DNA of 18,888 nucleotides from Amoebophrya sp. AT5.2 (Eukaryota; Sar; Dinophyceae; Syndiniales; Amoebophryaceae), in assembly GCA_005223375.1 (NCBI GenBank), contig RXOD01004718.1, forward strand, positions 1 through 18,888, read 5' to 3'. The position numbers and the translations under genes are program-made. The notes below the pieces were generated by a model. The model did not search any database, was not told the DNA's origin, and worked only from the letters and a program-made list of their open reading frames with translations. Shown here one piece after another: positions 1 through 16,241 of this stretch; position 1 is the stretch's first letter, and every line of letters begins with the position of its first letter.

Positions 1-794
1 AAGAGGATCCCTTGGATCAAGTAACGTTCGTTTCATTTAAGCACAGAGCCGGCATTCCGGCGCCGCGCTTCGCCATATGATCTCCAATTTTTGGAAGGGC
101 GGGCCATCGATTCGAGGAACAAGCCATCTTTGGGCTATGGAATTTTCCGAGAGGTGATGCACCGGCCGAATCTGACGATTGGACCAAACGGGCATTGCCG
201 GCCAAGGGGGCGGTATGAACCGGCATGGTTCATTCATTCAAAAGATTTCTTCTGAATCCCTTACCGCTTAGAGGTTAACAGAACGGACGCCGACGAAATC
301 GCTCTGGGAATCACAAGCATATTTTTGGTTGGAAACTGGACTACGATGAGCATGCGTTGAACCAACTACGATGAACATGATTCATTTATTTCAAATACAT
401 TGTACTTGTTTCATCTCGGTCTCGGAAGAATCACGAACAGGCCCACGGGACGATGGAGAGAGCCGTTTCGCTTCATGAACATGATGTGCATCATGTGCGG
501 TACTGACGCTGAAATTTATCTTCGTGCTTGCTATTTGCGCAGAGATTTTAACTTTCATGGTGATGGTACGATGCTGGATTTTTCCGGCGATAATCAGCAT
601 GGCACTCCATTCACTGCATTCTTTCGAATCGTCATGGTAATCGATCGGATTTATGCGTGTCTATCTGAGTAAGTACCTCGGTTGTGATGGCGCGATGTTG
701 GCCAGCCCCCCAAGAGAGAAAGAAAACCGCGTGAACAAGCTTTTTCCCTCCACCTCCCCCTCCGATTGTCATTGTTTCCACCATAATTCCCTAC
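1..794. other. Gene-free stretch downstream of the HicA-domain gene
   Basis: No convincing coding region is seen on either strand; the open frames here are short and have no recognisable domain or bias. On the minus strand it is the 3' flank of the gene ending at 795. It holds an imperfect direct repeat (340-355 against 365-379, core ACTACGATGARCATG, 25 bp apart) and an 18-bp palindrome at 479-496 (ACATGATG/CATCATGT around TG). A minus-strand AATAAA-like hexamer lies near 383-388 but is far from the stop codon, so its use as a polyadenylation signal is unproven. Confidence 0.5.
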
Positions 795-3700
795 TTACAT
801 ATTCAAATGTTTCTTCGCCTCCCGTGCGATGCGTTTCAGTTTTTCTGTCGAGATTCCCATCTCCTCTGCTAGCTGTTTGTTTGTCCACTCCGAGTTTTCG
901 CATTTCAGCTCCAAATACTTCTGCACCAAAGGGTCGCGTTCGTCGTTCATCGCAGTCGCATTCATCCGAGGTGGGGGCGCAAACGATGAGCCATTGGCTT
1001 TACACCCCCGCTCTCCCGCGGCCTTCATGTCGCTTTCTCCACCAAATACCGCAGCCCCGTAATCCACCTCCCCAATTCCGCATCCAATCGCCTTCCCAAT
1101 TTCCGCGATCGCTGCTTTCAGCTCCACCGTCTTCAACCTCGCAAGGAAATCCCCGCCAAACACCGGCTGCAGTTCCACTTTCAGCCGCTCCGAGCAGTGG
1201 GCCAGGTGCTTCAAGTCGGAAAGTAAGTCGCACACCTCCTGCTCCATGCATTCGGGCATTGCTTTGTTGTGTTGCTCCATGAACTCAACCATCAAGTCCA
1301 TCTGACGGACACCCCCCGAGAAGCAATTTGTGACCGATTCGAAGTCCCAGAAGCGAGACGTCTTTGCAATCTGCCGAAACCCGAGCAAACAATTCGCGCG
1401 GAAGAACTTTAGTCGTTGCAGCGTGCGGTCTCTCCGTTTTAGCAGCGGGAGAAGCGTCTGGGCGCGGGATTGGAGGGGGGCGACGAACTTCTCGAAAGTT
1501 TTTGCTTTCGGCGAGATGACGGAGGAGATGGCACCTGCTGAGGAACCGCCGGCGACTAAGACCAGCCGCAGGAGTTTCCACGTGAGCGCCTCGGCAGCGA
1601 GCAGGTCCAAGCTTTCCGTCTTCCGGCCGAACTTTATGGAATCGAACAGCGCCGCGTCGTTATATCCCTTCAAATGCGCGCAATGAGACGGAATGCAGCT
1701 CGCGATGGACAGTACCGGGGTGGGAATATTCGTCTTCGCATTCCGCGCCACGTCGCTGACGGGCTCTAGGTTCTCGATGCTCAAGGCTTTCTTCCCGCTC
1801 GCCGCAACAACAACCGACCACCTTCCCGTGGCCGCGATTTTGCCTTCCACACAGCCGAGTTTCCCGTTCAACGCCTGTCCCGAGGCGGACTTTAGATTTT
1901 GGATCTTTACCACCGAACCGATCGCGAGCCCCTTGTTGGGTTTTTTCCCAGGAGGCAGCACGGCGAGCGCATCACTCCTCGTCTCCTGCAGAATCAAGTC
2001 CTCGAGGTGGATGCACGCAAAAAACTGCACCTCGAACGTGCAGCGGAGTCTGTAAACGCCGGCGAGCGCACCCTCTAGTCCCATCCCCCGTGTCGAGGGG
2101 CTGCGCCTCTGCAGGTCCTCGCCCTTCTTCATGATTCCCTGATGGTAGAACCGCATCGACGGGCCGGCGCCGACGTGCGTTTGTCTCGCGGCGGCCCCGG
2201 AAGATGTTGAGCCTCCGGGTGGGAAGGCACCAGCATCTGCGTTATTATACGCCCAGACGATTTTGCCGATTTTCATTTTCTTCTCGGTTTCGGCCTTGAG
2301 ATGGAAGATCTTGTCCTCGTCGCCGAATATTCCCGGTAGCCCACACTCGTGTTCCATCCACTGGCAGATCGTATGACCGGACCAGATGGTAAGTGGGGAA
2401 CTGGTAAATTAAGTAAATTTCCGCCCTCATATGTCGCTCTGTAATGGGTTCCCAGCTTTCTTGGGTGGCGGATTCCCCTAGGGGGCGAGAGTGTTAAGGC
2501 GCTCTGAACCGCCCGGCGCGATGAATCGCCGGGCGATTTCAGAGATGCCCCATTGTGGTGGTTAGGAGGCAGAGGGCACTAGAGCTATGGGAAGGCTGGC
2601 ACAGGGAGAGCGAGAAGGTCACGGCAAGCTACTGGCTAGTATGATGGTGATACAGCCTGAAAGTAGGGCAACAGAGGGCGCAAAGAGTGCTGGCGCTCTC
2701 CTCCTGGTGTCAGCTGTAGGGCGCAACGGTGCCAATGCCAGGCCCGCCAACCGCAGAAAGCCGCCTGTGCCCTGTTCTTTTTAGGACCACCACACAAGGG
2801 GACCCCAAAAAGCGCCCAAAAGAATTTTGGGCCTCCCGAGGGACGCGGCTGCGGCCGCGAGAGATCCGACACACCCGATCTGCCAGTGGATGGAGCACTT
2901 AGTACTTAGCCACTTACCATCTGGTCTCGCCATAGATCGGGTGTTTCGGATCTCTCGCGGCCGCAGCCGCGTCCCTCGGGAGGCCCAACTGCGTGTCGGC
3001 GAGCTCCTGTTGCAAAACCGCCTTCTCGAACCACTCGTTGCAGATCGCCTTCAGGGAGTCGATTTTGTTCGGCACTTCGCGGGGCCCGGTTTTGTCCCGC
3101 AGGAAGCCCGTCCTCTCCATGAACGAAGGCAGGTACACCCAGCGGATGAGGCGGTAGATCTTCGCGAACTTGCACACGTCGTGCGCACCGGGCGCGATGC
3201 CCATGCGTTTCTGGGCGTTTTCGCGATACAGCTTGGAGTGCGCCGGCTCTCCGCGGTACGCGACCGTGACCAAAGACTCAAGTTGCGACTGCGAGCTGCT
3301 TGTTTTATTAGGAAAATTATTACAGGATGACTTGGCGCTCCCGTGAAAGAGCCAGCCCATCCCCGCGCGGTTCTCGTTTTCCGCCTCCACCTCGAAGCCG
3401 AGGCGAAAATTCAACAACACCGTCACCAGGTTCGAGCTCCACGCCTGCAGGTCGGTCATCACCGAGCTGTGGAAGTCCGCCCACTCGTTCCAGTACTTGG
3501 AGAAGACCTCGTGCCGCGGCTTGTTTCCGTGGCGTTCGAAGAGCTGGAAGACCTTCTGGGGGACTTCCTGCGTGCAGATCGTGTTGCTCCACTCGTAATG
3601 CAGCAGAAGAAGAATGTCGCCCATGGCCTGCAGCACGTCCACCACGAGCAGACCAAGCATGGTGGCCGCGACGGCGTCCAAATTCACGTCCAGCTCGCCG

Positions 3701-6700
3701 TTGGCGCGGCTCTTCGCGGCAGGGACGAAGAGGACGTCTGCGTCGGTGGAGCCCAAGTCTCCGCTTTTCGTGGCTGGCTGATCACGATGATGTGCACTAC
3801 TGCCACTGTGGACGGTGCTCGTGCTTCGTCCGTCTTCCCCGAACACCAGTCTCGCGAACGCCTCCGTCTTCGAAAAGTAGCTCTCCATGAGCTTCCGCAA
3901 TTTCTCGTCGTGCGGCACCTGTGGAACCAGCTCTATTTTCGCGTCCGGCACCGCCTGAACCAGTCGGAAAATTTTCTCCTGTGCCTTCTTCTTTTCTTTG
4001 CTGGTCTGCGGAAGGTGGACATCCTCGTCCGGCAGGCGGGGAGCCAGGTAGCCGACCTGCTCGGCCGCTTCGCGGTTCTGCATCAGACTGGCCATCTGGT
4101 GCCGAATGAGGACCAAATTCTCGGGCTTCAAGCTCAGCTGGTGCGGGGATTCTTTCGGTTTAATATTCGGTTTATTCGCTTGAACTTGCTGATGCAGCAA
4201 CTTCACCACATACAGCGTCTCGGAGGCCGATTTCTTCACGCAGTCCACGACTTCGCCGCGCTGGCCATTCAGCTCCGGCTTGGACCTCAGCCTTTTCACG
4301 TTGACACGATCGCCGACGCAGAAAATGTAGGGTCTTTGATCTTCCCCGCTTCCATCCTCCGACGAACAGTGGTCCACCTCTACGCTGTCTTCTTCCGTGA
4401 CGAAGCGGCGGGGCGGGTCGGTCTCGACGCCCCGCGGCATAGGCACTTTTTTCGTCCTAGAAGTCGTAGTCGTCTTCTTGTTCACCTGCCGCTGACGAAG
4501 ACGATCACGAGGAAGTAGCCCCTTCTTCGGAAAGAAGGCGTGCATTCCGTGGCAAAACGGCACCAACCCGTAAGCCTCCAGCTGGAGGTAAACAGGCGCC
4601 AGCTGCATCAGGTACCACGCACAGGCCGTGAACAGCTCCACCTGCTGCAGCATTGCGACCGCGGTGGTCGCGTCCGTCGCGCGAATAACGGTCGGCGCAG
4701 ATGAAGATGAGGTGAAGTTGTCAGCTTTGCTTCCTGCTCCGCCTCCCGTCAACTCCGCGGCATCCCCGTGCTTCACGTAGCCGTCGACTGTTTTCATTTC
4801 CACCTCTTTTCCTCGGCTCGCTTTCCCGGCTGCAATCTCGTTTCTTTCGGTTTCTCCCATCTCGGCTAAGAAACGCTCTACTTCCTCGCCGGTGATGATA
4901 TCGTCTTCCCTCCCGCCGCCTCCCTCCCGCGTCGGCGCCCCTTCCAGCGGATCCATGCCCCACTCCTTTTCCAGTTGCTTCCGTACCTGCACCTCCGCGA
5001 ACCAGCCGCCGACCGCTGCCAGGTGCTCCCTGGAGTAGCTTTGGCACGACCGCTCGGCGGCGTCGCAAAGCGTAGTGTACACCACGTACAGGCACTTCTT
5101 GCGAAAGTGCAGGAGCTTTTCCGTCAGAGCTTCATCAGTTCCGCAAGATCTTCCACTCTGTTCCTCTAATTTCCTGTCGCAGTACTTCAGCCCTGTAATC
5201 ATGGCGCCAAAAAAAATCTTTCCCCTAGATCCGCCTGGGGGCATTATCACCCCTAGATCCGCCTGGCAATGGTCTGGCGTGTAGAGCACGTAGTCGTGGT
5301 TCCTTTCCCTCTGGTCAGCGAGCTGCTTTTCGCGGTGCTGCTTCGAGAGAATCAATTTCGCTTGGACGGACGCGAGGGTGCTGGATGAAGAGGCGTTTTT
5401 CTTGCTTTTCACATTTGCACCTGAACCTAGTACGCCTTCGTCTAACCCTTGCAGGAAGAGTTTCCGCATGGCCGACGCGTTTTCTTTCACGGTCAAAGCA
5501 CCGGGCGCCAGACGCAATTCGTTGTCGGCTCTCGTTAGGTCCTCGGTCGATGGCTCCATCAGCACGTACCAGCTGGCGGGCGATATCTCCCCGCCAGAAA
5601 AGCCTGCCCCAACATCTGCGCCAGCACCTCGTCCCCCTCCCTCACAAATCGGCACTCCAAACACCTTCAGCAGTCGGTCCAGGACCCCCGCGGTTTTCTC
5701 GAACTCGCGGAACTGGAAGAACCGCGTCCGCAGGTCCTCCAGGAGGAAGGTTACCGACAGGGCGAAAGCGTGGCCAAAATTTTCCACCACGTAGTGCTTC
5801 TTCAGGTAATTTTTCTCTACGGTCTCCGCGACGAAGTTGAAAGCCTCGGTTACCGACGCGTGGAACACCATAACCCCCGCCAGGTCCTTGAGGTCGTCTG
5901 GTGCCGCCGACGAAAAACCACCGGGTGTATTCGTTCCATCGCGATCGTACCCGTCCGCACACCGCAGCGTTTCTACCTCGGTGGCCAGCCGCGCGTTGAA
6001 CCGCGTGGCGAGGCTTTTCAGCATGTCCTCCCGCTTGTCGGAAACGACCTCGGAACGCCGCCAGAACTTCGCATTCATGTCGTCCACGAGCGCCAGAATC
6101 TGCCACAGTCCGTCCGTCTCCACCTGGGACACGAAACCCGTGTCGACGACCCGGAAGACGCGCGCCCGGATCGTGGAAAGCAGCACGAAGTCGAGCTCCT
6201 CGAGCGTTTCCGGCGAGAGGAGCGACTTGACGTTCAGCAGTGAGGTGCCTACTCGATCTTCTCCTTCTCCGCTTCCCCTTTCCTCGTCAATCAGGCCCGG
6301 CGCTTCGCGTCCCTTCATCTCTTTCAGCACCTTCCCCGGCGAGAACAGTTTGTGCTCGTAGAAAAAGGTCTTCAGCGCCCGCTCCGCCTGCTCGAACGCG
6401 TCGATACCAAGAAGGTCGAACACTTTTTCGAGTAATCCGTCCACGAGCGAGTGCGCCTCGTCCCGCTGTTCGGCTCGTAGTCGCAACCCTTCCGCCGTGA
6501 GCTCCTCAAGCAACCCCGGCTCGTGTGCGAGTTCCTCGACCAGGACAACAGGCAGCCGCCAGGACGAATCTTCCGGTGATTTCGCCGGACTGGGAGAACA
6601 GGAAGTGTCAGGCGCACAGGTGCTGTCGGCAGTAGCAAACGACTCGGTGGAGTCGCTCCTCGGCTTCGTAGCATCATCTTCCCTGGGGGTCCGACGACCA

Positions 6701-6945
6701 CCTGGTCCTGCTGTCGCCTGCCGCTCCTTCGCCTTCTTCCGCTCTTCGAAAGCGCTGTCCCTCTCTTCGATGCGTTTCAGGGTGCCCATAAACGCGGCGC
6801 GGGAGATTGCATTCTTGGAGTGAATCGAGACAGGGATGCAGCCATAGCCCGGCTTCGTGAAGATATGGTGCGACCCGGTGATGCGCTCGCACGCCCAGCC
6901 GAGCTCCTCCAGGAGCCGGTGCAGCGACCGGGAAGAGGCGGCCAT
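795..6945 (-). CDS. HicA/YcfA-like domain multidomain protein, two exons (about 1860 aa)
   Basis: Exon 1 is 6945-2935 and exon 2 is 2366-795 if introner A (2372-2934) and one TSD copy are removed exactly; this joins in frame as ...KHPI|CQWMEHE.... An alternative GT-AG intron, 2917-2401 (donor GTAAGT, acceptor TTACCAG), is also in frame and adds 17 residues. Residues about 5-57 resemble the HicA/YcfA family: LLEELGW, the GSHHIF motif at 24-29 with the family's catalytic-type His, IPVSIHS, and a helix ending GTLKRI. A KOW/SH3-like module lies at about 876-950 (GDRVNVKRL...LNGQRGEVV...LKPENLVLI). A second lies at about 1485-1543 (GSVVKIQNL...LNGKLGCVEG...IENLEPV). The last 45 residues form a helix-turn-helix (TNKQLAEEMGISTEKLKRIA). 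The rest is not recognised. In bacteria HicA domains bind and cut RNA; here the domain is only a small part of a large eukaryotic protein, so an RNA-binding or regulatory role is inferred. The start ATG is in good context (purine at -3) and the domain begins right after it. Confidence 0.8.
2372..2934 (+). mobile_element. Introner A: TIR/TSD insertion forming the intron of the HicA-domain gene
   Basis: A 563-bp insertion flanked by the perfect 5-bp direct repeat GATCG (2367-2371 and 2935-2939). Its ends are inverted repeats starting TATG, with a 17-bp identical core GACCAGATGGTAAGTGG at 2380-2396 and its complement at 2910-2926. It has no coding capacity, so it is non-autonomous. Its body shares blocks with introner B (2460-2510 against 12220-12272, around TTGGGTGGYGGATT and AAGGCGCTCTGAA) and with introner C in opposite orientation (TTCAGAGATGCCCC, TTAAGGCGCTC). 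It lies antisense to the host gene, taking the body orientation as plus. It has a GC-rich hairpin at 2510-2535. At the element boundary the flanking bases are C on both sides, so exact removal would not be GT-AG. Confidence 0.85.
2510..2535. repeat. GC-rich hairpin in the body of introner A
   Basis: Perfect 9-bp stem CGCCCGGCG / CGCCGGGCG with an 8-nt loop. It sits just after the block shared with introner B (AAGGCGCTCTGAA). Introner B has unrelated stems in its own body, so secondary structure seems to be kept although the sequence is not. Confidence 0.7.
2827..2988. repeat. 55-bp inverted repeat: empty-site copy of the host exon inside introner A
   Basis: The arms 2827-2881 and 2934-2988 are complementary at 54 of 55 positions, with a 52-nt loop (2882-2933). 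The right arm is the last 55 nt or so of exon 1 of the HicA-domain gene. The left arm continues without break through 2882-2898 into a copy of the start of exon 2 (GCCAGTGGATGGAGCAC against GCCAGTGGATGGAACAC in the real exon). So 2827-2898, read on the plus strand, is the host gene sequence across the insertion point without the introner: 72 bp, two mismatches. The loop contains the GTAAGT donor (minus strand, 2917-2912). The copy is inverted relative to the gene. Confidence 0.92.
5222..5266. repeat. 17-bp exact direct repeat inside exon 1 of the HicA-domain gene
   Basis: CCCCTAGATCCGCCTGG occurs at 5222-5238 and 5250-5266, offset 28 bp. The offset is not a multiple of three, so the two copies are read in different frames (QADLG and PGGSRG). 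Removing one unit would shift the frame and give a stop after about ten codons, so the duplicated state is the coding one. Confidence 0.75.
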
Positions 6946-7975
6946 TTCTGTGGAGCTATCCGATGGACGAGAAGTCCTTGACGTTGTTGATCGATTCGAT
7001 GGCAGCTGTGGAAAAATCTAAAAAGCTGTATTACGTGGTGTTGGTGTATGCGGAGATAACGATATTACTTGCCTTAAGCTTAATTTCCTTCGTCAATGTC
7101 TTCAGTCTTCTTCTGATTCTGGTGTCCTTGATGAATCCAGCGCGTTCCTGGTGAGGATTTTACTTCACTCAGTCATTATTTTAGGTTTTTAGCGTGTCTG
7201 TACTACAGACGAAATGAATCTGACGAACCAGCGTCCCTCGACGCCAAGATCCTATTCCTCCCTTGCGACAAAATAAACATATGAACAATGAATCAATATT
7301 AAAGGACGAAGTAGAGTCATAATGAAAGCGCTTACCGTCTACGTTACCATATGGTAGTGGTTCCGTAACCGTAGCTCCGGGGGACTGCTGTGCCTCTGTG
7401 GTATGAGGTATGAGGTATCCTGGCCGCGGCCGCGTACCCGCCAGGTCTCCACTGTGCCTGTGGTAGGGCTGGAGGGATAATGATAGAAGAAAAAGTGTGA
7501 GTATACATAGCAAACCATAGCCTGCCGGTTTTGTATACGTGATGTGATCTAATGGGCCGTGATCAACTTTAGCACCAAAGAAATTATATGTGTTCGCGCT
7601 CGTCTCTGGCCAGCCGCTGGCCCACGGTAATCATGGTAGACGTATCGTATCTATGGGAAGATCAATCCACGACTCGTTGGAACAGCAAATGAAGATGCGA
7701 AGATCGGCAACAGATCGGCAACAGATGCCGCACGTATCTTCAGGCGGGGACGATGTGCGAGTGCGCGACAGGAGTGGTGTCACGACCGACCACGAATGTC
7801 AGCTGAAGTAGTAGATGAAGATGCTGATGTTTCAATTTTGGTAGAACACGTGAAACTTCTCAGGGCCACTGGCCCCGAAGAACAAGCTGTGCGATCAAAT
7901 GCAATCTCACATCATGCGGCATCATCAATCTCAATCAACAGCATCTCGTCTATTAGATATTAGAGGAGCCCCACT
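6946..7975. other. Intergenic: 5' flank of the HicA-domain gene and 3' flank of the tRNA-binding gene
   Basis: About 1 kb without a supported gene. It contains a 7-bp tandem (GTATGAG) at 7401-7418, directly followed by a GC-rich CCGCGGCCGCG patch, and an 11-bp tandem duplication (AGATCGGCAAC) at 7701-7722. A plus-strand frame at 6963-7154 encodes 63 mostly hydrophobic residues and begins 17 bp from the divergent start codon of the minus-strand gene. It has no family resemblance and lies on the strand with no other genes, so I do not call it. No TATA box or spliced-leader sequence is recognised. Confidence 0.5.
7701..7722. repeat. 11-bp tandem duplication
   Basis: AGATCGGCAAC is present twice head to tail, followed by a partial third unit (AGATGCC). 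It is non-coding; no function is proposed. Confidence 0.8.
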
Positions 7976-8701
7976 TCATCTCGGTTTTTTATCTGGTGGT
8001 CTGTCTCCTACTTTGAACGTTTGTTTATCTGAGAACTTCACGGCAGCGCCTTTCCCGCCCCCCACCCAATCCAGCATCACGCTATCGCAAAGCATGCCTT
8101 CGGAGGGCGTGCTCGATACACTGGCTTTCTTCACCTCCTCGCCGCCATCGTCGAGCGATTTCCCGGCAGGGACTATTGCGCCGATTTGTGCAACCACGAC
8201 GCGATCGTCGACCTTGACTTTCAAGTCGTTCGTCACGATGCACAGGAGGGCTGGGTCTGTGACGTGAAGCGTGAAGATTCAGATGTTGTATCAGTTGATC
8301 CTGACGTAGTTGTACACCTTTCGCGCAGCTGAAACGAGGGGAGTGCAACGTGCTTCGTGTTCGTTCTCAACGTCGACAACTAAAAACCTAGCTATAAATA
8401 CGCAAGCACCTTCCTCCCCATCTGGCGACACGCGGACCGTGAGTTTGTTCAGCTTCTTGTTGGCACCGCAGCCCTTCTCCACTTCTTCGACCGCCGCGAT
8501 TACGAAGTGCTCGTATTTTTTGACCCACGGGAACTCGGTGGGTGGCACGGACTCCCCGCAGCTCAAGCACATTGCGGAGGAATTCAATCCATTATCGGGG
8601 TCCTCGGGCTCAAACTCCTTCCCCCCGCAGCCGGGGGCTGGGCACTCGAGCTGCCCCCGGTAGATGTCGGTGTCCGAATCTGCACCAGCGTCCTCGGGCA
8701 T
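7976..8701 (-). CDS. Zinc-ribbon plus tRNA-binding-domain (EMAPII/Arc1-type) protein, two exons, 190 aa
   Basis: Exon 1 is 8701-8410, exon 2 is 8256-7976, with a 153-bp GT-AG intron between (donor AAG|GTGCTT, acceptor CACAG|ACC). The join is in frame and reads ...SPDGEE|DPALLCIVTND..., restoring a continuous OB-fold domain. Residues about 20-52 hold two cysteine pairs, CPAPGC (C-x4-C) and CLSC (C-x2-C), likely a zinc ribbon. Residues about 60-190 resemble the tRNA-binding domain found in Arc1, EMAPII and the C-terminus of some methionyl-tRNA synthetases: the strand FVIAAVEEVEKG, CIVTND, RVVVAQIGAIVPAG, the SEGMLCDS signature and a terminal VGDRPP. Such domains bind the outer corner of tRNA and often act as cofactors of aminoacyl-tRNA synthetases, usually in the cytosol. 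There is no catalytic synthetase domain here. The start ATG has no better upstream candidate. The zinc ribbon in front is less usual. Confidence 0.8.
8257..8409 (-). other. Conventional GT-AG spliceosomal intron in the tRNA-binding gene
   Basis: 153 bp, phase 1, with donor GTGCTTGCG and acceptor TTCACGTCACAG. It has no terminal inverted repeat and no flanking direct repeat, unlike the introners in the neighbouring genes. It is needed because the upstream frame stops soon after the donor and the downstream frame has a stop just before the acceptor, while the joined product is a continuous tRNA-binding domain. Confidence 0.8.
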
Positions 8702-9203
8702 GGTTTACATTCTACAATTTACAAGTATAGTATGATGTGTGCTGGGCGTGGGCGCCACGCAGCTACGATGATGGTCGCTAGTCGTACTCGACGCCCGTCC
8801 CCGTGCTGCTGGTGGAAGTGGATGTTGTCGATATTTCTCGTTGTAAAATTCTCGTGGTCGTTCATCGAGCAGATCTTGATCTTCTTCACGATGACACAGA
8901 CACTAGTGCATCCATGTACTTGTTGTACATTCTTGTGCAGCACGAGGATGAAGAACGACAAGAACAACATCAACATTACTGATCTCTAAATAAATTGCAG
9001 GAGAACTTCCACTTCGAGGATTGCCATTCATTGCTGAGAGCTGCAGCTACCACGCTGCACCGCGGCTTTGTCCTCGTCTACGTCTTTCCTGCGACATCCA
9101 CTACTAGTTCCTTACTGATAAAAGTTCTTTGACAAAAATTTTTGTTTGACCACATTGACAAAGATTCACCAAAGCCGCGGTCTGTCCGTCGTGCCATAAT
9201 TTT
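8702..9203. other. Intergenic between the tRNA-binding gene and the four-exon gene
   Basis: About 500 bp; no gene is supported. It is 5' flank of the gene starting at 8701 and 3' flank of the gene ending at 9204. The perfect 14-bp palindrome ACAAAAATTTTTGT at 9132-9145 lies about 60 nt past the stop codon of the four-exon gene and could mark its transcript end, but this is speculation. Confidence 0.5.
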
Positions 9204-12200
9204 TTAGTCTTGTTCGAGCATCTGACGCATCTCAGCGTCCATTTCTGCACCGAGTTCTTGGCCGCCCGACAACCCCTCATCCTGCAAGAACGGCTCAGCG
9301 TCCATTTCTGCACCAAGTTCTTGTCCACCCGACAACCCCTCATCCTGGAAGAACGGCTCTTCAGCAGCCGCCATGACTTCTTCATCGTCGACTTGCAGCG
9401 GAGGTATGCCACTCGCACTCGACGCAGCCGCCCCCGACGGCGATGCCTCGTCCTCGATTCCCCACCCTTCTTGATCCAGATCCAGATCCCACAATTGTTC
9501 CAAGTTGTTTTTGTTCTTGCGGTTGTTCGTCTGAGTTGACCGTCCTCCTTTTTGCGGTTTCCCGCGAGGTCGTCCTCCTTTATTTCGCGGGGGAGGAAGA
9601 ACTTGAGGTGCGGCTGACGCTGCGGATGACGAACCTCCTCCTCCTCCGTGGTTGCCGACGACGTAGTTTCCAGCTTCGTCTTCGCCGCCAACGCCATCAG
9701 CTTCGTCCGCCCCTGGCGGGATCTCCAGCTCCATGCAGTTTAGTCTGTACCAGCCCGGCCCGCCGTGGCGAAGCACCCACTCGACCAGTTCGAACTTCCG
9801 ACTCTTCTCGTTCTTTTCAAGAACCACACTCGATTTTCCGCACGGCTTCGCGCCGAGATTGCGCCAGCGGCCCTTGAGCGAGTCTGTCGGGCGGGCGAAC
9901 AAGTTGGCCAGCTTTTCTTGTGTTCCGGAGTTCAAACACCGGCCCAGCGGGTGCTTGCCTGGGTCGGCCTCAAGCAGAATCGGCACGGGCAGGTTGACGG
10001 CGGCGGTCTTGGCTCCTTCGGCCGCGGCTTGCTCTCTAAGGCCGCCTCCGTCAAGGCCCAGAACTTCATGATGTCCCCCAGCGCCCACTTCCTGTTCCAC
10101 CTTTAAGAACGCGAACGGGTCGGCTGGATCGTAGGAGGCTCCCGTCCTCGAGGGCAACCCCCCCTCGAAGTCCTCCAGAAACCAGAGGTAGAACCCAACC
10201 TGCCGCGCGTTCAGTTTCCATCGAGAGAGAAACTCAAATGTATTCACGATAGTTCTTGTCGTTGTGTTTGCTCAGTAGCCTTCGTCTGCGTCTGCTGTAT
10301 CTATGAGAGTATGACAGATTAATTCCGTTCCCACGACGGACTTGATAGGTTTCTCAGCTACTTTCATAGGGCCGGCGAGCACACCGACCTAGGCACACGC
10401 TGTAAGTTTAACATTCTTATTCATCGCACTGTGCTCGCAGCAGCACTCGATACAACTACTCAAACCTGTCAAGCAAACTACTTAGTATGCAAATCCAATA
10501 GAAACCATAACCAGAGGTAGAACCCCACCTGCAACGCGTTCAGTTTGTGCCGCCGCATCTCGCCCCGTTGCTCCTTCTCCTTCTCGTTTTCCGCCAGCTC
10601 CTTGCAGCGTTTCTTGTTGACATCCTCCCTGCACTATGCTGGGGCCAGGTGGTGACGGTGATTGTTTGTAAGTCGTCGGTAAGTAATTTCTTTAAAGCGA
10701 AATGTGGGGGCGGGGTTATTTCAGGGCCGCTTTTTCTTGTCCTGCGAGAAGAAGGCTGAAAAAGGAGGAAGGCAGCGAGCCGCAGCATCGAGACCGCTGG
10801 TGGCTGCAAATCTGCAACTTACAGCTGGCACTTCTAGATCGCCAACGCCAACCTAGGCACCCGCTGTTGCGCTTCTTTGAGGCTCTCGCCCCATCAGAAC
10901 AACTGGCAGGGGCTTATGATGGCACTCTTCACCGCCACCAACGGCTCACTTCCCTGCCGCCCCTAGAATTTCTACCGGAAACCGTAACCGCGACGGGGCA
11001 TCTCTGAAGAAACCGACCCAGACCCCCTCGCGCCGGGTATGAATCTTCCGAGCGCCTTAATATCCTTAATCGCAAGCGGTACTCGCCACCGCCAAGTGGG
11101 GACCCAACATTGCCTAGTCGGCGACAGCAACTAAGTCACTCACTTACCAGCACCTGGTCTCGCCTCATACGTACCAGTGCTTGAATTCGCTTTCGCGTAC
11201 TCCGCCCGTGCTGTATTCCTCCAACGCATGCAGCACCATGAGTAGGTCCTCCTTCTTGCTGAACTCCCTCCGCCCCTTCCGCGCCTTGCGACCGTTGGCG
11301 ACACAGCCGGGCGGGGGGCGCGATGACCCGGGGACGAGGGGGGCGCTGACGTTGCGCTGTCCCTGTGCGGCTGCGGACGATTCCGAGACATTGTCAAGTC
11401 GGCGTCTCTTTGCTTTTGCGCGGCCAACAACTCCGCCATTTAGTTCTACGCTGCGCATATCGAGGAGATCGTCTTCTTCTTGATCTTGCTCATTCAAATA
11501 CGAACTCACACCAGCCGCTTCTTCGTCGGCTGGGCGGCCGGGGCCGGTCCCTTCTGCTCCTCTGGGGCGGCGGAAGCTCGCGATGGCCGCTCCCTGCTTC
11601 CCTCCTTTTGGACGGTAGAGAACCGATTGCGACGACATCGTCGAGAGCGACGCTCTTTTCACGTTCGCGGCTCCGCGCGGTGCGCTGCTCGCTGGCGCGC
11701 CGTCCTCGAGTAAAATGTCGGGGCTCAGGAAGAAGTCGCGGCGCTGCGCTGCATCAGGAGGAGCTTCTGGCGCTGATGAGCTCGCTGCAGCTGATGGATT
11801 TCTTGCTGGTCCAGGTTGCGCGCCACGTCCACCTGTGGCAGCCACGACATCACGGCCGGACTTTTGCAACACTTGTGCGCCGCGCGGACAGTCTGCGTTG
11901 TTCCTCGCTAGGGCTTCGACGGCGCTTTCGAGGAGGTGGTCTACGTTTCCCGCCCGCTGTGCAGCCAGCATTCGCTTCACGACGGGCTCGACTACTTCCT
12001 TTACGTCTTGTTGATATTCTGGCGAATCATCCGCATCCTCCGCATTACTCCATTGCGCCTGGATCCGGATACTCGCTATCTGTCGCATCACATCCAGCGC
12101 AAGCTCCCGGCGGTTTGCATACTTCCGCGCATAGCGCCCTATGAAGAAGGGACCAGTGGCGATGAGTGAGTACCTGGCAAGTTGTGCTAGGTGATGTTCA

Positions 12201-13531
12201 GCACTCGCATTCTTCCCCACTTGGGTGGTGGATTGCCCCAGCGAGGGCGAGTGCGTCAAGGCGCTCTGAAGCCCGTCCCGCACATTGGACGTTTTTTCGG
12301 GTACAGCACTAGCTAGAAGTAGTAAAGTAGCGGTGCTACTTCTACGAGGGCTAGAGCCTGAAAGCAGGGCAAAACAAGGGCGCGCCTTCTAGTTCTTCTA
12401 GAGTGGCGGTTTATTGTTAGCTGTAAGTAGGGTGTAGCAAGGGTGTCAGGCCTGCTGCCGACCGCGGAAAGTAGCCGCCACTGCTCCTAGTATAGTTGTG
12501 TCCAGGAGCAGGACTGCTCCTCTTGCATTGTTCACTTAGGACGTACTTAGGCAAAGGGGCAAAGAGCCCCCCAAAAAATGAAAGAATCACTATCTTCACT
12601 ATCTTTCTACTTAAATCACCTCCACTTGCCCACTTCGCATCGCTGTTCCCACCATACGCTCAACGTTCCAGACTTTATCGTCCTCCTCCCTGCGGTTGAA
12701 AATTTTCATCATCTGCAGGTGCGCCTTCAGCTCCACACGGGCGATGCGCTGCCAGTGAAGGAGCTTGCTTTTGCTTTTCTCCTTCTCGACGTCGGCTTCC
12801 TCTGGAGTTTCGGTGCGGATGCGGGGGAGGGATCTGGATCTGGACCGTCGGCGCGGATGCGGGGGAGAGAGCGAATCGCACGAGCTTCTCCTCGCAGGGC
12901 GACCGAGCTGTACCGCTGGCACGACGTTGGGCTCGTCGTCCAGCATTCCGTAGAAGTCCTCGTCTCCGGACGAGCCGCCGGGGGCTCCTGCTGCTAGTTC
13001 GCGTTCTTCTTCTTGCCCCTCGTTCTTGTTCGTGTTTTCGTCCACCTTGTTGCTGTCGTCCTCGTCGTGCTCCTCGTTGGTGTACTTGGACTTTGCTTCG
13101 CCAGCACCCTTCGCTGTCGCCTTGGAGGGCCGATACTCCGAATATAAATGCTGTTGCTCCTCAACCTCAACTACAGCATTCTCATCTTCCTCCAGCTGCC
13201 CACCTCTGACTCGAGGTTCGAATCTGCGAGATTCGAATTGGCCCACATCCTCCTCCTCCGCCCTCGAGGCCGAGAGGGCGACGACGTCCTCCGGCCGCAA
13301 TCCGAAGTCGGGCTGGAACAGCCGTCCGTGCTGGTCGGCAGTGAGGTAGGGGTTGCGGGGAATGCTGTCGTTCGGGTGCTGGGGGGTGAACCAATGAGGA
13401 TGCGAGGAAAAATCCAGCGGAGCTTCTCCTTGTTCGCCATCCACCTCCGCGACCTCGGTCCTCGTCTCCGGAACAAGTTGCGGAGATTGATGCGCGCCGC
13501 GTTCGCGTTGGTCGTGTTGTACCTTTTTCAT
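9204..13531 (-). CDS. Predicted nuclear protein with possible SANT/Myb-like segments and an AT-hook-like motif, four exons (about 980 aa)
   Basis: Proposed exons: 13531-12658, 12138-11171, 10633-10529, 10199-9204. All phases agree (874+968+105+996 nt, 981 codons with stop). Exon 1 is acidic and Arg/Ser-rich (residues about 215-235 resemble an RS stretch) and ends in a charged helix (KVWNVER) that continues into exon 2 (YARKYANRRELALDVM). Exon 2 ends with FSKKEDLLMVLHALEEY, resembling the first helix of a SANT/Myb repeat, and exon 3 continues with a charged helical stretch. In exon 4, LANLFARPTDSLKGRWRNLG resembles a Myb recognition helix. A GGRPRGKP motif is AT-hook-like and the C-terminus carries a tandem 21-residue repeat. 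DNA or chromatin binding in the nucleus is inferred from these weak motifs; no named family is recognised. Two introns are introners B and C; the third is made by duplicated exon sequence. The start at 13531 is the first ATG after an in-frame TAG; an upstream exon cannot be excluded. Confidence 0.65.
9231..9356 (-). repeat. Tandem 63-bp (21-residue) repeat at the C-terminus of the four-exon gene
   Basis: Two head-to-tail copies, 9231-9293 and 9294-9356, with 4 of 63 bases different. They encode the acidic unit EPF[L/F]QDEGLSGGQELGAEMDA (shown as variants at one residue). The frame is preserved because the unit is a multiple of three. The low divergence suggests a recent duplication; copy number may vary between strains. 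Confidence 0.9.
10200..10528 (-). other. Intron with both splice sites in duplicated exon sequence (AGGT duplication)
   Basis: A segment of about 38 bp occurs at both ends of this 329-bp intron (minus strand, about 10550-10513 and 10221-10184; 35 of 38 bases equal). Each copy contains CAG|GT in the middle. Using the donor in the first copy (TTGCAG|GTGGGG) and the acceptor in the second (CGGCAG|GTTGGG) removes the interval in phase 0 and restores one copy of the peptide LNALQ|VGFYLWF. This matches the known mode of intron gain by duplication of an exonic AGGT. The interior shows no TATG-type terminal repeats, so it is not an intact introner of the type found next door. A 17-bp stretch at 10387-10403 resembles one in introner C (10851-10867, one mismatch). 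Confidence 0.8.
10635..11169 (-). mobile_element. Introner C: TIR insertion forming the exon 2/3 intron of the four-exon gene
   Basis: 535 bp with inverted ends: plus-strand TATGCTGGGGCCAGGTGGT at the left, and TATGAGGCGAGACCAGGTG reading inward from the right end. The flanking 5-mers TGCAC (10630-10634) and CGTAC (11170-11174) agree at three of five positions and look like a decayed target-site duplication. With the flanking G on each side the intron reads GTATG...CATAG and joins ...KHWY|CREDV... in frame. The stronger GTAAGT donor inside the TIR cannot be used in frame, because a TGA lies just before it. Body blocks shared with introner A (TTAAGGCGCTC, TTCAGAGATGCCCC) run on the minus strand, so it is in sense orientation to the host gene, opposite to A and B. 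Confidence 0.75.
12140..12656 (+). mobile_element. Introner B: TIR/TSD insertion forming the exon 1/2 intron of the four-exon gene
   Basis: 517 bp. The left end reads TATGAAGAAGGGACCAGTGG; the right end, read inward, is TATGGTGGGAACAGCGATG, a diverged inverted repeat. The flanking 5-mers CGCCC (12135-12139) and CGCTC (12657-12661) agree at four of five positions, as expected of an ageing target-site duplication. Including one flanking G on each side (minus strand) the intron is GTATGG...CATAG, 519 nt, and joins ...NVER|RYARK... in frame. The body shares blocks with introner A in the same orientation (12220-12272), and further on GCCTGAAAGYAGGGCAA. It contains the stems 12314-12322/12336-12344 and 12481-12488/12504-12511. 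It has no coding capacity. Confidence 0.8.
12314..12344. repeat. Hairpin in the body of introner B
   Basis: Perfect 9-bp stem TAGAAGTAG / CTACTTCTA around a 13-nt loop. A second stem, CTGCTCCT / AGGAGCAG, lies at 12481-12511. They are not conserved in sequence in introners A or C. Confidence 0.7.
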
Positions 13532-14416
13532 CCTATGTTCCGCGATCCCAGATGCTGCTGCCTATTTACCGTGTCGCGTAAAGGGTTACTGCTGCTCCCC
13601 CGATTGCGCGTCTAAATGTTGCGGCTATGGACGGTATCAGGCAACGACAAAGCGAAGCCAGGCAGGACATCAATGAAAGATATGAATGTTGATCATTCAC
13701 AGAGAAATACATCCTCGAAAGTGCATTTCGAACGCCAGCGCCACGCCCACGGGGGTATCGAAACTAATTCTAATTTTCAATTTCATCAGTCACCGTCGAT
13801 GAAGCAACAAGCTCGAGCAAGTAGTGGTCTCCTGCACTGTTACCTTCTTTTTGTGCTGCGGAGAGAACGGAGAGTTGTGATCGTGGGTGTTCCTGATAGC
13901 ACCAGCTAAACGCCGCTCCTGGGATGGGAAGTGAAAACTACTATAGTGCCAGTCCTGACGAAGTCGACGTCTCTCTGTATTGAGCCGAAGCCGTCTGATT
14001 CGTGATCCTCGCTGGGAAATTGAACAAACACAAAAACATGGGAAGTCAGGGGAGCGGAAGTAAGAAGTGGGACAAACACGAGTTCGACGAACATCAGCCG
14101 TAGGCGTCGAATTCGATTTACTCGAAGTAGAACTCAAGAGGACGCTCTGATGTCCTCGCTTTGCATTGATCGCGATGCTTTGCCGATCCAAATCCTTATC
14201 CTTTGCATCAAAGTCAAACCATGATCTTCAGATTCAGAACATGCCATACCCTATAGGGCTTTCTTGTTCTCCTTCAACAAGGTTTGTGGTCCGATGGATC
14301 AGAAGGAGCAGAGAACCGCGTCAACCCACAAAACGCGAACAAGTACAAAAGCAGATCCCGCCTCCCTCGACTCCCTAGCTGGGACGCTCAACTCATAGAC
14401 TCAATCGATCAATCGA
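13532..14416. other. Intergenic between the four-exon gene and the rhodanese gene
   Basis: About 885 bp with no supported gene. It is 5' flank of the gene starting at 13531 and 3' flank of the rhodanese gene. An 8-bp-period repeat (TCAATCGA) at 14401-14420 runs over the rhodanese stop codon. The plus-strand segment at 13537 (TATGTTCCGCGATCCCAGATG) resembles an introner left end, but no matching right end with a convincing target duplication is found. Confidence 0.5.
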
Positions 14417-15139
14417 TCAAGCATTTCCCCCACCCCCACCCCCTCCTTCCACCAGCATCTTGACTTCGTCCACGCCCCCGCCGTTTTTCACTCCCCCATA
14501 CCCGAGCGCCCGCAGCGCCTCCGCGGCCCGGTGCGAGCGGCCTCCGACCGCGCAGTACACTACTATAGGTGTGTCTTTGCCGACCTTCTTCTCTTTCAAT
14601 TTCACGACTGCCTCCTCGGAGTTGAGAACCGCGACCGGGTCGTCCGGCATGCGGATGGAGATGTTGATGCTGTTCGCAATCGATTTCTGCGCGAACTCCT
14701 CCGCCGTCCGGCAATCGATCAGCACCACGTTGCTGGCCTTCGCAGTCTCCTGCCAATTCTCGTCCCACTTCTGGGAGGCCTGGATCGACATGCCGCGGCG
14801 CTGATGGATGAAAGTTGAGCTAGTTGCAGCTGATGTTGATGTACCCACAGGTTGCGGCCTTTTGCCCTTGTTGAGGAGCGTTGACTTGGACGCAGTAGAA
14901 GTTGCAGTAGAGAAAGACGCAGATGAAGATGACCTTGACCACGGCGCAGTGCTACTGGTGACAAAGATAGGCCAGAAAGGTCGCTGCTGTAGAAGTGGGC
15001 CAACCAAGACGTGGGATTGCTGAAGAGAACGAGAAGAGGTCATCTGACTCGAAAGAAAAAGAATAGCAATGGTATTAAGTAGTTGATGTGTCCCTATCGC
15101 AATCTTTCGCTGTCGTTCAAGCCAAGAGAGACTTAACAT
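14417..15139 (-). CDS. Single-domain rhodanese-like sulfurtransferase, probably mitochondrial (240 aa)
   Basis: A single-exon frame. Residues about 122-228 form a rhodanese domain: VVLIDCRTAEEFAQ (139-152, with the family's IDxR motif) and the active-site loop YCAVGGRSHRAA with the catalytic cysteine at 196 and arginine at 201 (C-x-x-G-x-R). Such domains carry sulfur as a cysteine persulfide. The first 120 residues are rich in Ser, Thr, Leu and Arg with almost no acid, which suggests an organelle-targeting presequence. Translation may start at Met1 or at Met33 (MTSSRSLQQS), which would give a more typical presequence. The tail is a short glycine run (EGGGGGGGNA). Single-domain rhodaneses are common in thiosulfate metabolism and stress; the exact substrate cannot be told. 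No intron and no introner is present. Confidence 0.85.
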   Translation of the reverse strand: MLSLSWLERQRKIAIGTHQLLNTIAILFLSSQMTSSRSLQQSHVLVGPLLQQRPFWPIFVTSSTAPWSRSSSSASFSTATSTASKSTLLNKGKRPQPVGTSTSAATSSTFIHQRRGMSIQASQKWDENWQETAKASNVVLIDCRTAEEFAQKSIANSINISIRMPDDPVAVLNSEEAVVKLKEKKVGKDTPIVVYCAVGGRSHRAAEALRALGYGGVKNGGGVDEVKMLVEGGGGGGGNA

Positions 15140-16241
15140 TCAAAGTTGCAGCTTCTGAGGAGCAATTTGTAGTTTCTCTGCAGGCGAGGAGGAGAACCAC
15201 TTCTTGAGGAGCGCGAAAACCTAAAAACGGTGTGCCTCTGGTCTCGAAGTCGAATCGGGAGAACTACGAGCGGCAAGTGTGAAGCAGAAGACCCGCGTGA
15301 TAATTCAGTATTGGTTATACGTGAAAGTAGCGAGTGACAGTGAGCCGATGGTGCGACTGCGAGCACTTTCATTCATTCAAGTATGATCATTTGAGAAGTA
15401 GAACACGAAGAGATGGAGTTTGAGATCACGACGCGAAGTAGGACCTCAGGTCGTCGTCGTCGACATCGGCACCAGCGTAAAGAAATGCACCTGCCTCCGC
15501 CAGGAAAACGAGGCTCCCACCCGTCGAAGTCTGTAGATCTAGATCGCGTTTCTGCTTGCCCTTTGACGAGGAGCAAAATGTTTTAAAAGAAAATCTCCTC
15601 GTCGAAGGTCTTCAAGCAGGGCTGTTCATTTCAGTGCGACCACTATCCGATGGAGGTCTCTGTAGTCTCTCCAGAACTTTCTTATATTTCCCGACAAACA
15701 ACTTCTGGCCTGGTGTTGCAAGAACAAGAAGAAGAAATGCTAAAGCGGAAACTCTAGTTACAGTGATGCGACCGCAGTCGCTTTCAGGGTATGGAGCTGG
15801 AGGTTGCCACTACTATACTTCAATCATATCTTCAACCGCAGAACCAGATCGGAATCCGTGCAATGAGCGAGCTACCTACCGGTGTCTGGGTGACCACGTG
15901 CCGGTGCGGGTGCGTGGATAAAAAATAAAGTACTTCTCTGAGTAGACTCAGAGTTCCAAGAAAGTCAAAATATATGTAAAATCCGTCAGGCGAGGGTCGC
16001 AGGAGCCGCGGTCCTACAGACAGCATCACCTCCAGAACAAGAAAGAGTATATCAAGAATAGAAAAAATAGACCACAAAAAGGGTAAGAGCATACTTACAT
16101 CATATCCTGTGTGAGTGTGCGGCGTGAGCGGCTTCACCAGCTACGGCGCAACATTATTTCAAGAAAAGTCTTAATCTATAGAACCAGGCTACTGGAAGAA
16201 ATCTTAGTAGCGGAAATCAGTAATGGCATGCCCTGCAGCAC
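15140..16241. other. Intergenic between the rhodanese gene and the RGG/Lys-rich gene
   Basis: About 1.1 kb; no supported gene. A minus-strand frame at 15832-16137 has a hydrophobic stretch but no ATG at its beginning and no family resemblance. A strong donor-like GTAAGT lies on the minus strand at 16098-16093, so part of this may be a 5' untranslated exon and intron of the rhodanese gene; I cannot show it. An 18-bp palindrome (CTCTGAGT AG ACTCAGAG) lies at 15936-15953. Confidence 0.45.
15936..15953. repeat. Perfect 8-bp inverted repeat
   Basis: CTCTGAGT and ACTCAGAG separated by AG, in AT-rich non-coding DNA. It could form a tight hairpin or be a binding site; nothing else supports a role. 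Confidence 0.6.

Follow-up and report, generated by a model that had tools for sequence, protein, structure and literature searches.

Copies of their own flanks inside introners of Amoebophrya sp. AT5.2, probably filler DNA from repair at inserted elements

Introduction

How does an introner come to contain, in inverted orientation, the site into which it is inserted, written as if the element were absent? The question is raised by an element in a minus-strand gene of Amoebophrya sp. AT5.2 (contig RXOD01004718.1, positions 1 to 18,888; this whole stretch of 18,888 nucleotides is called the window below). The way in which introners move is disputed, and DNA transposition, reverse splicing and an unknown way have all been considered (PMC7789003, in its passages on this point, is among the sources). 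The introners of Amoebophrya genomes, as portrayed in the intron passages of Farhat et al. 2021 (PMC7789003), resemble the present ones in being repeated introns with inverted repeats at their ends and short direct repeats at their boundaries. The host gene of the window also has a relative in Amoebophrya sp. A120. Here we describe the copied site, search the introner family for similar cases and weigh the ways in which such copies may have arisen.

Results

The introner of the window and its host gene

The elements of this family end in TATG...CATA next to a 5-bp TSD, and these family-wide ends fix the window element at 2372-2934. The features of the locus are the following.

2372..2934, no strand: introner of 563 bp, TIR family, in the minus-strand host gene (TIR and TSD family model; the flanking frames join across it)
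2367..2371, no strand: TSD copy 1, GATCG (family model)
2935..2939, no strand: TSD copy 2, GATCG (family model)
2372..2395, plus strand: left TIR, TATGACCGGACCAGATGGTAAGTG (inverted-repeat search and TIR-core scan)
2911..2934, minus strand: right TIR (inverted-repeat search and TIR-core scan)
2827..2898, plus strand: filler that repeats the empty site (flanks joined) in inverted orientation, placed between the element core and the right TIR; a single TSD at 2876-2880
2896..2898, plus strand: CAC, common to the copied exon 2 sequence and the CACTTA of the element; a possible 3-nt microhomology at the switch
2935..2988, minus strand: end of exon 1 (coding), copied into nucleotides 1-54 of the filler (alignment)
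2349..2366, minus strand: start of exon 2 (coding), copied into nucleotides 55-72 of the filler (alignment)
2914..6945, minus strand: upstream frame of the host gene, a 1343-aa ORF entering the element (related proteins known from Amoebophrya sp. A120 and EukProt)
795..2357, minus strand: downstream frame of the host gene, listed as a 520-aa ORF (ORF list)

Once the element is skipped and one TSD is kept, the host gene translates into 1861 codons with one stop. A canonical GT-AG intron running from the GTAAGT of the TIR to the nearest exon CAG was discarded because, as read by eye, it would shift the frame. Judging from its copies, its TIR and TSD and the restored host frame, the window element is an introner of the TIR, DNA-transposon type.

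The two best relatives of the host protein come from Amoebophrya sp. A120 and from EukProt. With the element skipped, the host protein aligns across the site to both of them, with DLKHPICQWLE in the A120 protein and DPKLPMCCWLEHECGLPGIFG (which contains LPMCCWLEH) in the EukProt protein; both are predicted proteins and thus silent on the presence of an intron at the site, and a third match falls short of it. A paralogue in the same assembly (L009, contig C1990) aligns to both exons, and no element separates them in it. The empty site thus has independent support from the DNA of the paralogue, which holds it, and from the two predicted proteins, which read across it. The ancestral reading ...HPICQWMEH... 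put forward in a preliminary description of this DNA agrees with LPICCWME in the paralogue, HPICQWLE in A120 and LPMCCWLEH in EukProt. At the N-terminus of this large protist protein, residues 6-55 of the 2914-6945 (minus strand) product are predicted to form a HicA-like domain (Pfam, E 4e-8), and the same Pfam domain is listed in all three relatives.

An inverted copy of the empty site

The preliminary description had reported that 2827-2898 matches the minus-strand gene across the insertion point as though the introner were absent. We confirmed this match, which covers the joined flanks at 70 of 72 positions. The composition that it gave, 55 nt of one exon and 17 nt of the other, holds except for the split, which is off by one base: positions 2827-2880 correspond to the minus strand of 2935-2988 (54 nt) and positions 2881-2898 to the minus strand of 2349-2366 (18 nt). 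The two mismatches lie at copy positions 2870 and 2895, and one TSD only is present. A repeat finder returned the same structure as two pairs of inverted arms, 2827-2881 with 2934-2988 (55 nt, 98%) and 2349-2371 with 2876-2898 (23 nt, 96%), the next long inverted pair near the filler being the element's own TIR pair. The filler scored 67 against its own joined flanks, and no swapped-flank control reached 15 in 10 rounds.

The host K codon is common to the two related proteins and the paralogue, so the T of the copy is the derived state. At 2895 the copy reads GAG, as does the paralogue, and the host exon reads GAA; thus, at this one site and with this one paralogue, the copy probably keeps the older base.

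We searched the 50.7-Mb assembly for the 72-nt fragment, and 40 of 74 first-look candidates were scored. Among the matches listed, the only other one is the paralogous gene on C1990, at 81-83% identity. Occurrence of the fragment in many unrelated copies of the element, which had been named as evidence against a fossil of this site, was thus not seen among these matches. At just 81-83% likeness, the paralogue was also ruled out as the origin of the insert. In an alignment of the right ends made with the window insert removed, the insert is absent from 19 of 19 aligned relatives, of which a few are too diverged or truncated to judge and one, L021, bears its own filler at this end. The well-aligned relatives pass from the A/T-rich end of the core directly into CACTTA or a variant of it, which rules out the insert as a fixed part of the element.

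A family of TIR introners

The TIR core, with up to two mismatches, occurs at 758 sites in the assembly, against 8 for the reversed pattern, and at least 48 DNA matches to window positions 2700-3000 were obtained, including the window itself and the paralogue. Elements were gathered by similarity to that of the window and by the TIR core. The family model (TSD of at least 4/5) was passed by 63 elements, and three more from a generic scan for TIR elements brought the sample to 66, of which 13 were found by similarity (window included) and 53 by TIR core. The generic scan gave 16 candidates, compared with 7 in shuffled sequence; 13 of the 16 were dropped, and L025, L037 and L049, in which the family TIR is present, were kept. 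The TSD is 5/5 in 48 of the 63 elements and 4/5 in 15, one-base shifts being allowed, and these counts are non-independent support since the TSD was an entry criterion. Introners were counted if they had both ends, a TSD of at least 4/5 and at least 30 nt of flank on each side, copies at contig ends being left out. These 66 elements represent a fraction of the family, which may number ~380 if the 758 TIR sites pair up. The assembly consists of 2759 contigs, and many of the TIR matches listed sit no more than a few hundred bases from a contig end, which indicates that it tends to break at introners.

Ten introners with copies of their own flanks

Copies of their own flanks, 18-72 nt long, were found in 10 of the 66 introners tested (the window element, L002, L017, L021, L042, L061, L072, L093, L096 and L097), and swapped flanks gave about 0.3 per round. 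In this gapped test, control matches numbered 0.3 per round at a score of 13, and there were none at a score of 15. An ungapped test detected 11 matches in 10 of 63 elements, with 0.25 control matches per round at a score of at least 14 and none at 16 or above in 20 rounds. Four of the 13 elements found by similarity carry such a filler, and six of the 53 found by TIR core. The window insert, which had been regarded as a singular event, thus belongs to a group of ten, and one other member, L093, also holds a joined copy.

The fillers follow rules, which rest on these ten cases and were noticed after the cases had been seen. They lie 23-58 nt from the element end in 10 of 10 elements, just inside the TIR, with a probability of ~6e-6 under even placement, calculated after the fact. 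In addition, the nine one-sided copies all derive from the flank opposite the nearer TIR (two-sided 0.004), seven of them direct and two inverted. Beside the right TIR, left-flank copies are direct in L002, L021, L042 and L072 and inverted in L061; beside the left TIR, right-flank copies are direct in L017, L093 and L096 and inverted in L097. In the window, the part of the filler that touches the right TIR is left flank, from which the copy continues through the empty junction. The test took in flanks of 200 nt, and no source that was detected lies farther than ~57 nt from the insertion point; self-comparison with up to 1300 nt of flank added only element-like segments inside elements. The inverted copy in L061 stops within the TSD, as would be expected if the flank had been broken there. 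Beyond the CAC at one junction of the window filler, microhomology at the junctions is weak or, for most of them, could be judged only against the parental element.

The copies show 0-4 differences from their present-day sources in ungapped matches, with at least one in 6 of 10 (4/46 in L061 and 2/27 in L042; none in L093, L096 and L097), and L021 has more differences in its gapped match than in the ungapped one. Most fillers are therefore aged sequences.

We also compared each carrier with other sampled elements, at most seven listed relatives each, for element sequence missing at the filler. In L017, 80-134 nt are missing relative to 7 of 7 listed relatives, and in L072 128-167 nt relative to 6 of 7, the remaining one giving 274. 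Losses were also found in L097 (39-88 nt, four relatives), L096 (37-42 nt) and L061 (13-27 nt). Element sequence is probably missing in L093 (positive in 5 of 7) and in L042 (6 of 6, with long unaligned stretches). The window filler is accompanied by a loss of just 7 and 3 nt relative to the two closest listed relatives and of up to 81 nt relative to more distant ones, and L002 and L021 gave mostly negative values, with no clear deletion.

L093, the most complex case, has several switches. Besides a 27-nt copy of its right flank, it contains a 19-nt stretch that corresponds to its joined flanks and has the same core segment on either side. This direct joined copy (17/19, with a single TSD) was spotted by eye before being tested; it scores 14, and none of 1954 control comparisons reaches 13, two reaching 12. 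Joined copies of the empty site are thus present in 2 of 66 elements, the one in the window being the larger. Weaker matches crossing the junction in L004 (10.5), L057 (8) and L049 (7.5) fall within the control range and were left uncounted.

Rearrangements and repeats around introners

Apparent rearrangements of a related kind are found outside the elements, at several introner sites. On contig C19 (L100/L101, ~21.6-22.2 kb), filled and empty copies of one site stand in tandem, with left flanks alike at 43/47 and right flanks at 62/65 positions, and an inverted copy of the left flank lies between them. On contig C400 (L124, ~17.4-18.3 kb), an exon that we take, by eye, to be Cdc14-like is tandemly duplicated, one copy being empty and one carrying an introner, and a perfect 35-nt fold-back of the empty junction separates the two. 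At the end of contig C598 (L074), direct and inverted copies near an introner, in a gene that is presumably photolyase-like (also by eye), resemble these two loci and stop at the contig edge. A stretch of 54-56 nt near the introner L026 (C1821) occurs in direct and inverted copies; copy lengths at L074 and L026 are 30-56 nt. These four loci suggest that template switching at introner sites may be broader than the fillers inside the elements.

Local repeats were also seen away from introners, mostly short or tandem, so that local duplication is not confined to introners. The element L045, whose TSD is 4/5 only, has an exact 26-nt direct copy in both flanks, 27-30 nt from the element. Within the window, a 38-nt piece of exon is present at 10179-10217 and 10508-10546 as a direct repeat (35/38) with copies ~329 bases apart, apparently on either side of an intron of a minus-strand gene. 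At 9230-9359, a 63-nt unit occurs twice in tandem (62/66 matched bases) within overlapping reading frames.

Some elements hold stretches that the other sampled elements do not cover. In L126, such a stretch of 111 nt lies just inside the left TIR (offsets 35-146) and is 83% alike over ~66 nt to contig C1269, where a frame is open across all 501 bases fetched. In this one case, the stretch may be the stamp of a former host gene or of its relative. The uncovered stretch of L068 proved to be an ordinary subfamily segment, with 14 genome matches including itself, and was rejected as a stamp; that of L025 matched only itself in a genome-wide search.

Predicted folding of the host pre-mRNA

The inverted repeats of introners may form hairpins that let the exon boundaries join, according to the passage on this subject in Farhat et al. 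2021 (PMC7789003). In the predicted fold of the host pre-mRNA without the filler (RNA parameters), the two TIRs pair. With the filler, the end of exon 1 is predicted to pair with its antisense copy, the 5' TIR is caught in a loop and the TIR-TIR stem is lost; the isolated stem of exon 1 and antisense copy has a predicted energy of -141 kcal/mol, compared with a shuffle mean of -66. On these models, the filler may disturb the splicing of its own introner.

Discussion

Gap repair at an inserted element

The 72-nt stretch is, in our view, probably filler DNA made by template switching in the repair of a gap at the introner, most likely after excision by a transposase. Template switching had been proposed in the preliminary description, and the position of the fillers, the flank rule and the occurrence in 10 of 66 elements speak for it as the best class of mechanism. 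The events might have run as follows. The introner, or one sister copy of it, would already have been sitting in the host gene when a gap opened at it, most likely on its cutting-out by a transposase. Repair synthesis would have re-entered the element from the exon 1 side, presumably in that direction, and copied 36 nt of the right TIR end. The nascent end would then have left its template and annealed, through a few bases that may have been CAC/GTG, to the exon 2 flank across the gap. On an already-empty molecule, synthesis would have covered 18 nt of exon 2 and gone on through 54 nt of exon 1, before it returned to the element and completed the remainder. We infer an empty sister or homologue as this template, and likewise the polymerase used.

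A resynthesised TIR end that reaches across the gap accounts for the location of the fillers, their origin from the opposite flank and the missing element sequence. Direct copies, which form the majority, would result if the nascent end annealed to the 3' strand across the gap, and joined ones if an empty sister or homologue served as template. The end of the L061 copy inside the TSD fits the end of a broken flank. Other observations count against gap repair. Almost nothing has been lost in the window and no clear deletion is seen in L002 and L021, and interrupted gap repair usually deletes. A joined copy requires an element-free template, which is itself presumed. Lastly, the Amoebophrya genome paper, in its discussion of transposases, argues against general mobilisation by them, since A120 had none and A25 two putative ones (PMC7789003).

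The strongest rival to gap repair is fork stalling at a TIR hairpin, which also brings the flanks together. On single-stranded DNA, the TIRs would form a hairpin, and synthesis would stall after 23-58 nt of TIR, slip at the hairpin base onto the flank on the opposite side and return; a slip from TSD to TSD past the hairpin would provide the element-free template without any excision. On this account, no transposase would be needed for the fillers to lie inside the TIR and to come from the opposite flank; the TIRs do pair in the predicted fold without filler (RNA parameters), and the tandem filled and empty duplications with inverted snippets at L100, L124 and perhaps L074 resemble rearrangements of this kind. 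For animal Pack-TIRs, the relevant part of PMC8277862 sets out a proposed model of fork stalling and template switching (FoSTeST). Nevertheless, the missing element sequence at the fillers of L017 and L072 fits interrupted gap resynthesis better, and the point inside the TSD where the L061 copy stops resembles a DNA end, so that we regard fork switching as rather unlikely, with a real chance of being correct. It is improbable that the filler was made at insertion with an uninserted sister or homologue as template, the main idea of the preliminary description. The single TSD and the empty-site sequence do have the look of a pre-insertion target. Cut-and-paste insertion is completed by the repair of a few bases at the outer ends; the fillers instead lie inside the TIRs, several with missing element sequence, and the main copy stops short of the junction in 9 of 10. 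That the insert is a copy of the uninterrupted site stands; that it must date from insertion does not, since a filler just inside the TIR, drawn from the opposite flank and often accompanied by missing element sequence, points to repair at an already inserted element.

Two further explanations apply to the joined copy or to the data as such. Precise splicing that removes one TSD copy would give the same joined sequence in an RNA of the host gene, which reverse transcription could then have returned to DNA, and for Amoebophrya the splice-site passages of PMC7789003 describe introners whose splice boundaries fall on direct repeats. Eight of the ten filler elements have one-flank copies only, for which a spliced RNA is not required, and the opposite-flank rule follows from the geometry of DNA ends and not from RNA; a reverse-transcribed RNA, also suggested at the outset, thus becomes unnecessary and is barely probable. 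A chimera of amplification, library or assembly deserves mention because the assembly, in 2759 contigs, tends to break at introners and fold-back chimeras yield inverted copies. Such an artefact would have to include two junctions with a clean return to the element, to differ from its source by two bases in the window and by 0-4 in the other fillers (ungapped), to carry a GAG that agrees with the paralogue and not with the host exon, and to obey the positional rule at ten loci. With 6 of 10 copies differing from their present-day sources, a chimera of amplification or assembly is unlikely, and we consider an artefact of any of these kinds very improbable.

Relation to known systems

Abortive gap repair at maize Ds elements and insertions made by polymerase theta leave direct or inverted copies of sequence tens of bases from the break, primed by a few bases. 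The fillers described here are likewise direct or inverted copies of an element's own flanks, in our case known from sequence alone. Pack-MULEs are TIR elements that carry host gene fragments; the L126 stretch is like these, whereas the other fillers are short and come from the present site of the element itself. For P elements and Pack-TIRs, a gap-filling model in which the filler comes from adjacent DNA is presented in the corresponding sections of PMC8277862, and there too filler from adjacent external DNA interrupts the element by template switching. In those sections, the breakpoints of single-copy Pack-TIRs are skewed towards the interior; such a skew is not seen here, where 10 of 10 fillers lie just inside the TIR. 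Our cases also differ from Pack-TIRs as presented there in that the sources lie within ~57 nt of the insertion point and two elements hold the joined empty site. The fillers at excision sites in rice, in the summary figures of PMC4423477, are also short (average 13 bp, 1-123 bp) and arise from break repair at transposon sites; there the filler replaces an excised element, whereas here the element is kept and the filler lies within it.

Copies of flanking host sequence are not mentioned in the introner passages of PMC7789003, unlike in the TIR family with a 5-bp TSD studied here, where 10 of 66 elements have them. In the openly accessible literature searched, we found no report of own-flank fillers in introners. 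The process itself is known from other DNA transposons.

Implications

The own-site fillers preserve physical evidence of DNA repair at introners, and they favour DNA-based processes there, whether cutting or stalling. They provide a countable signature that can be sought in any genome with TIR introners, and they preserve, at the level of sequence, empty alleles and perhaps also genes that once hosted the element. They also represent a route by which a new intron gains antisense exon sequence, which may upset its own splicing. More tentatively, it is possible that introners of this lineage persist or multiply by excision and sister-templated gap repair, each faulty repair stamping a fragment of the current host just inside the TIR. 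If so, stamps that move with the element, perhaps including that of L126, would record former hosts and joined-flank stamps would record empty alleles, and these elements would be both creators of introns and small-scale shufflers of exon fragments.
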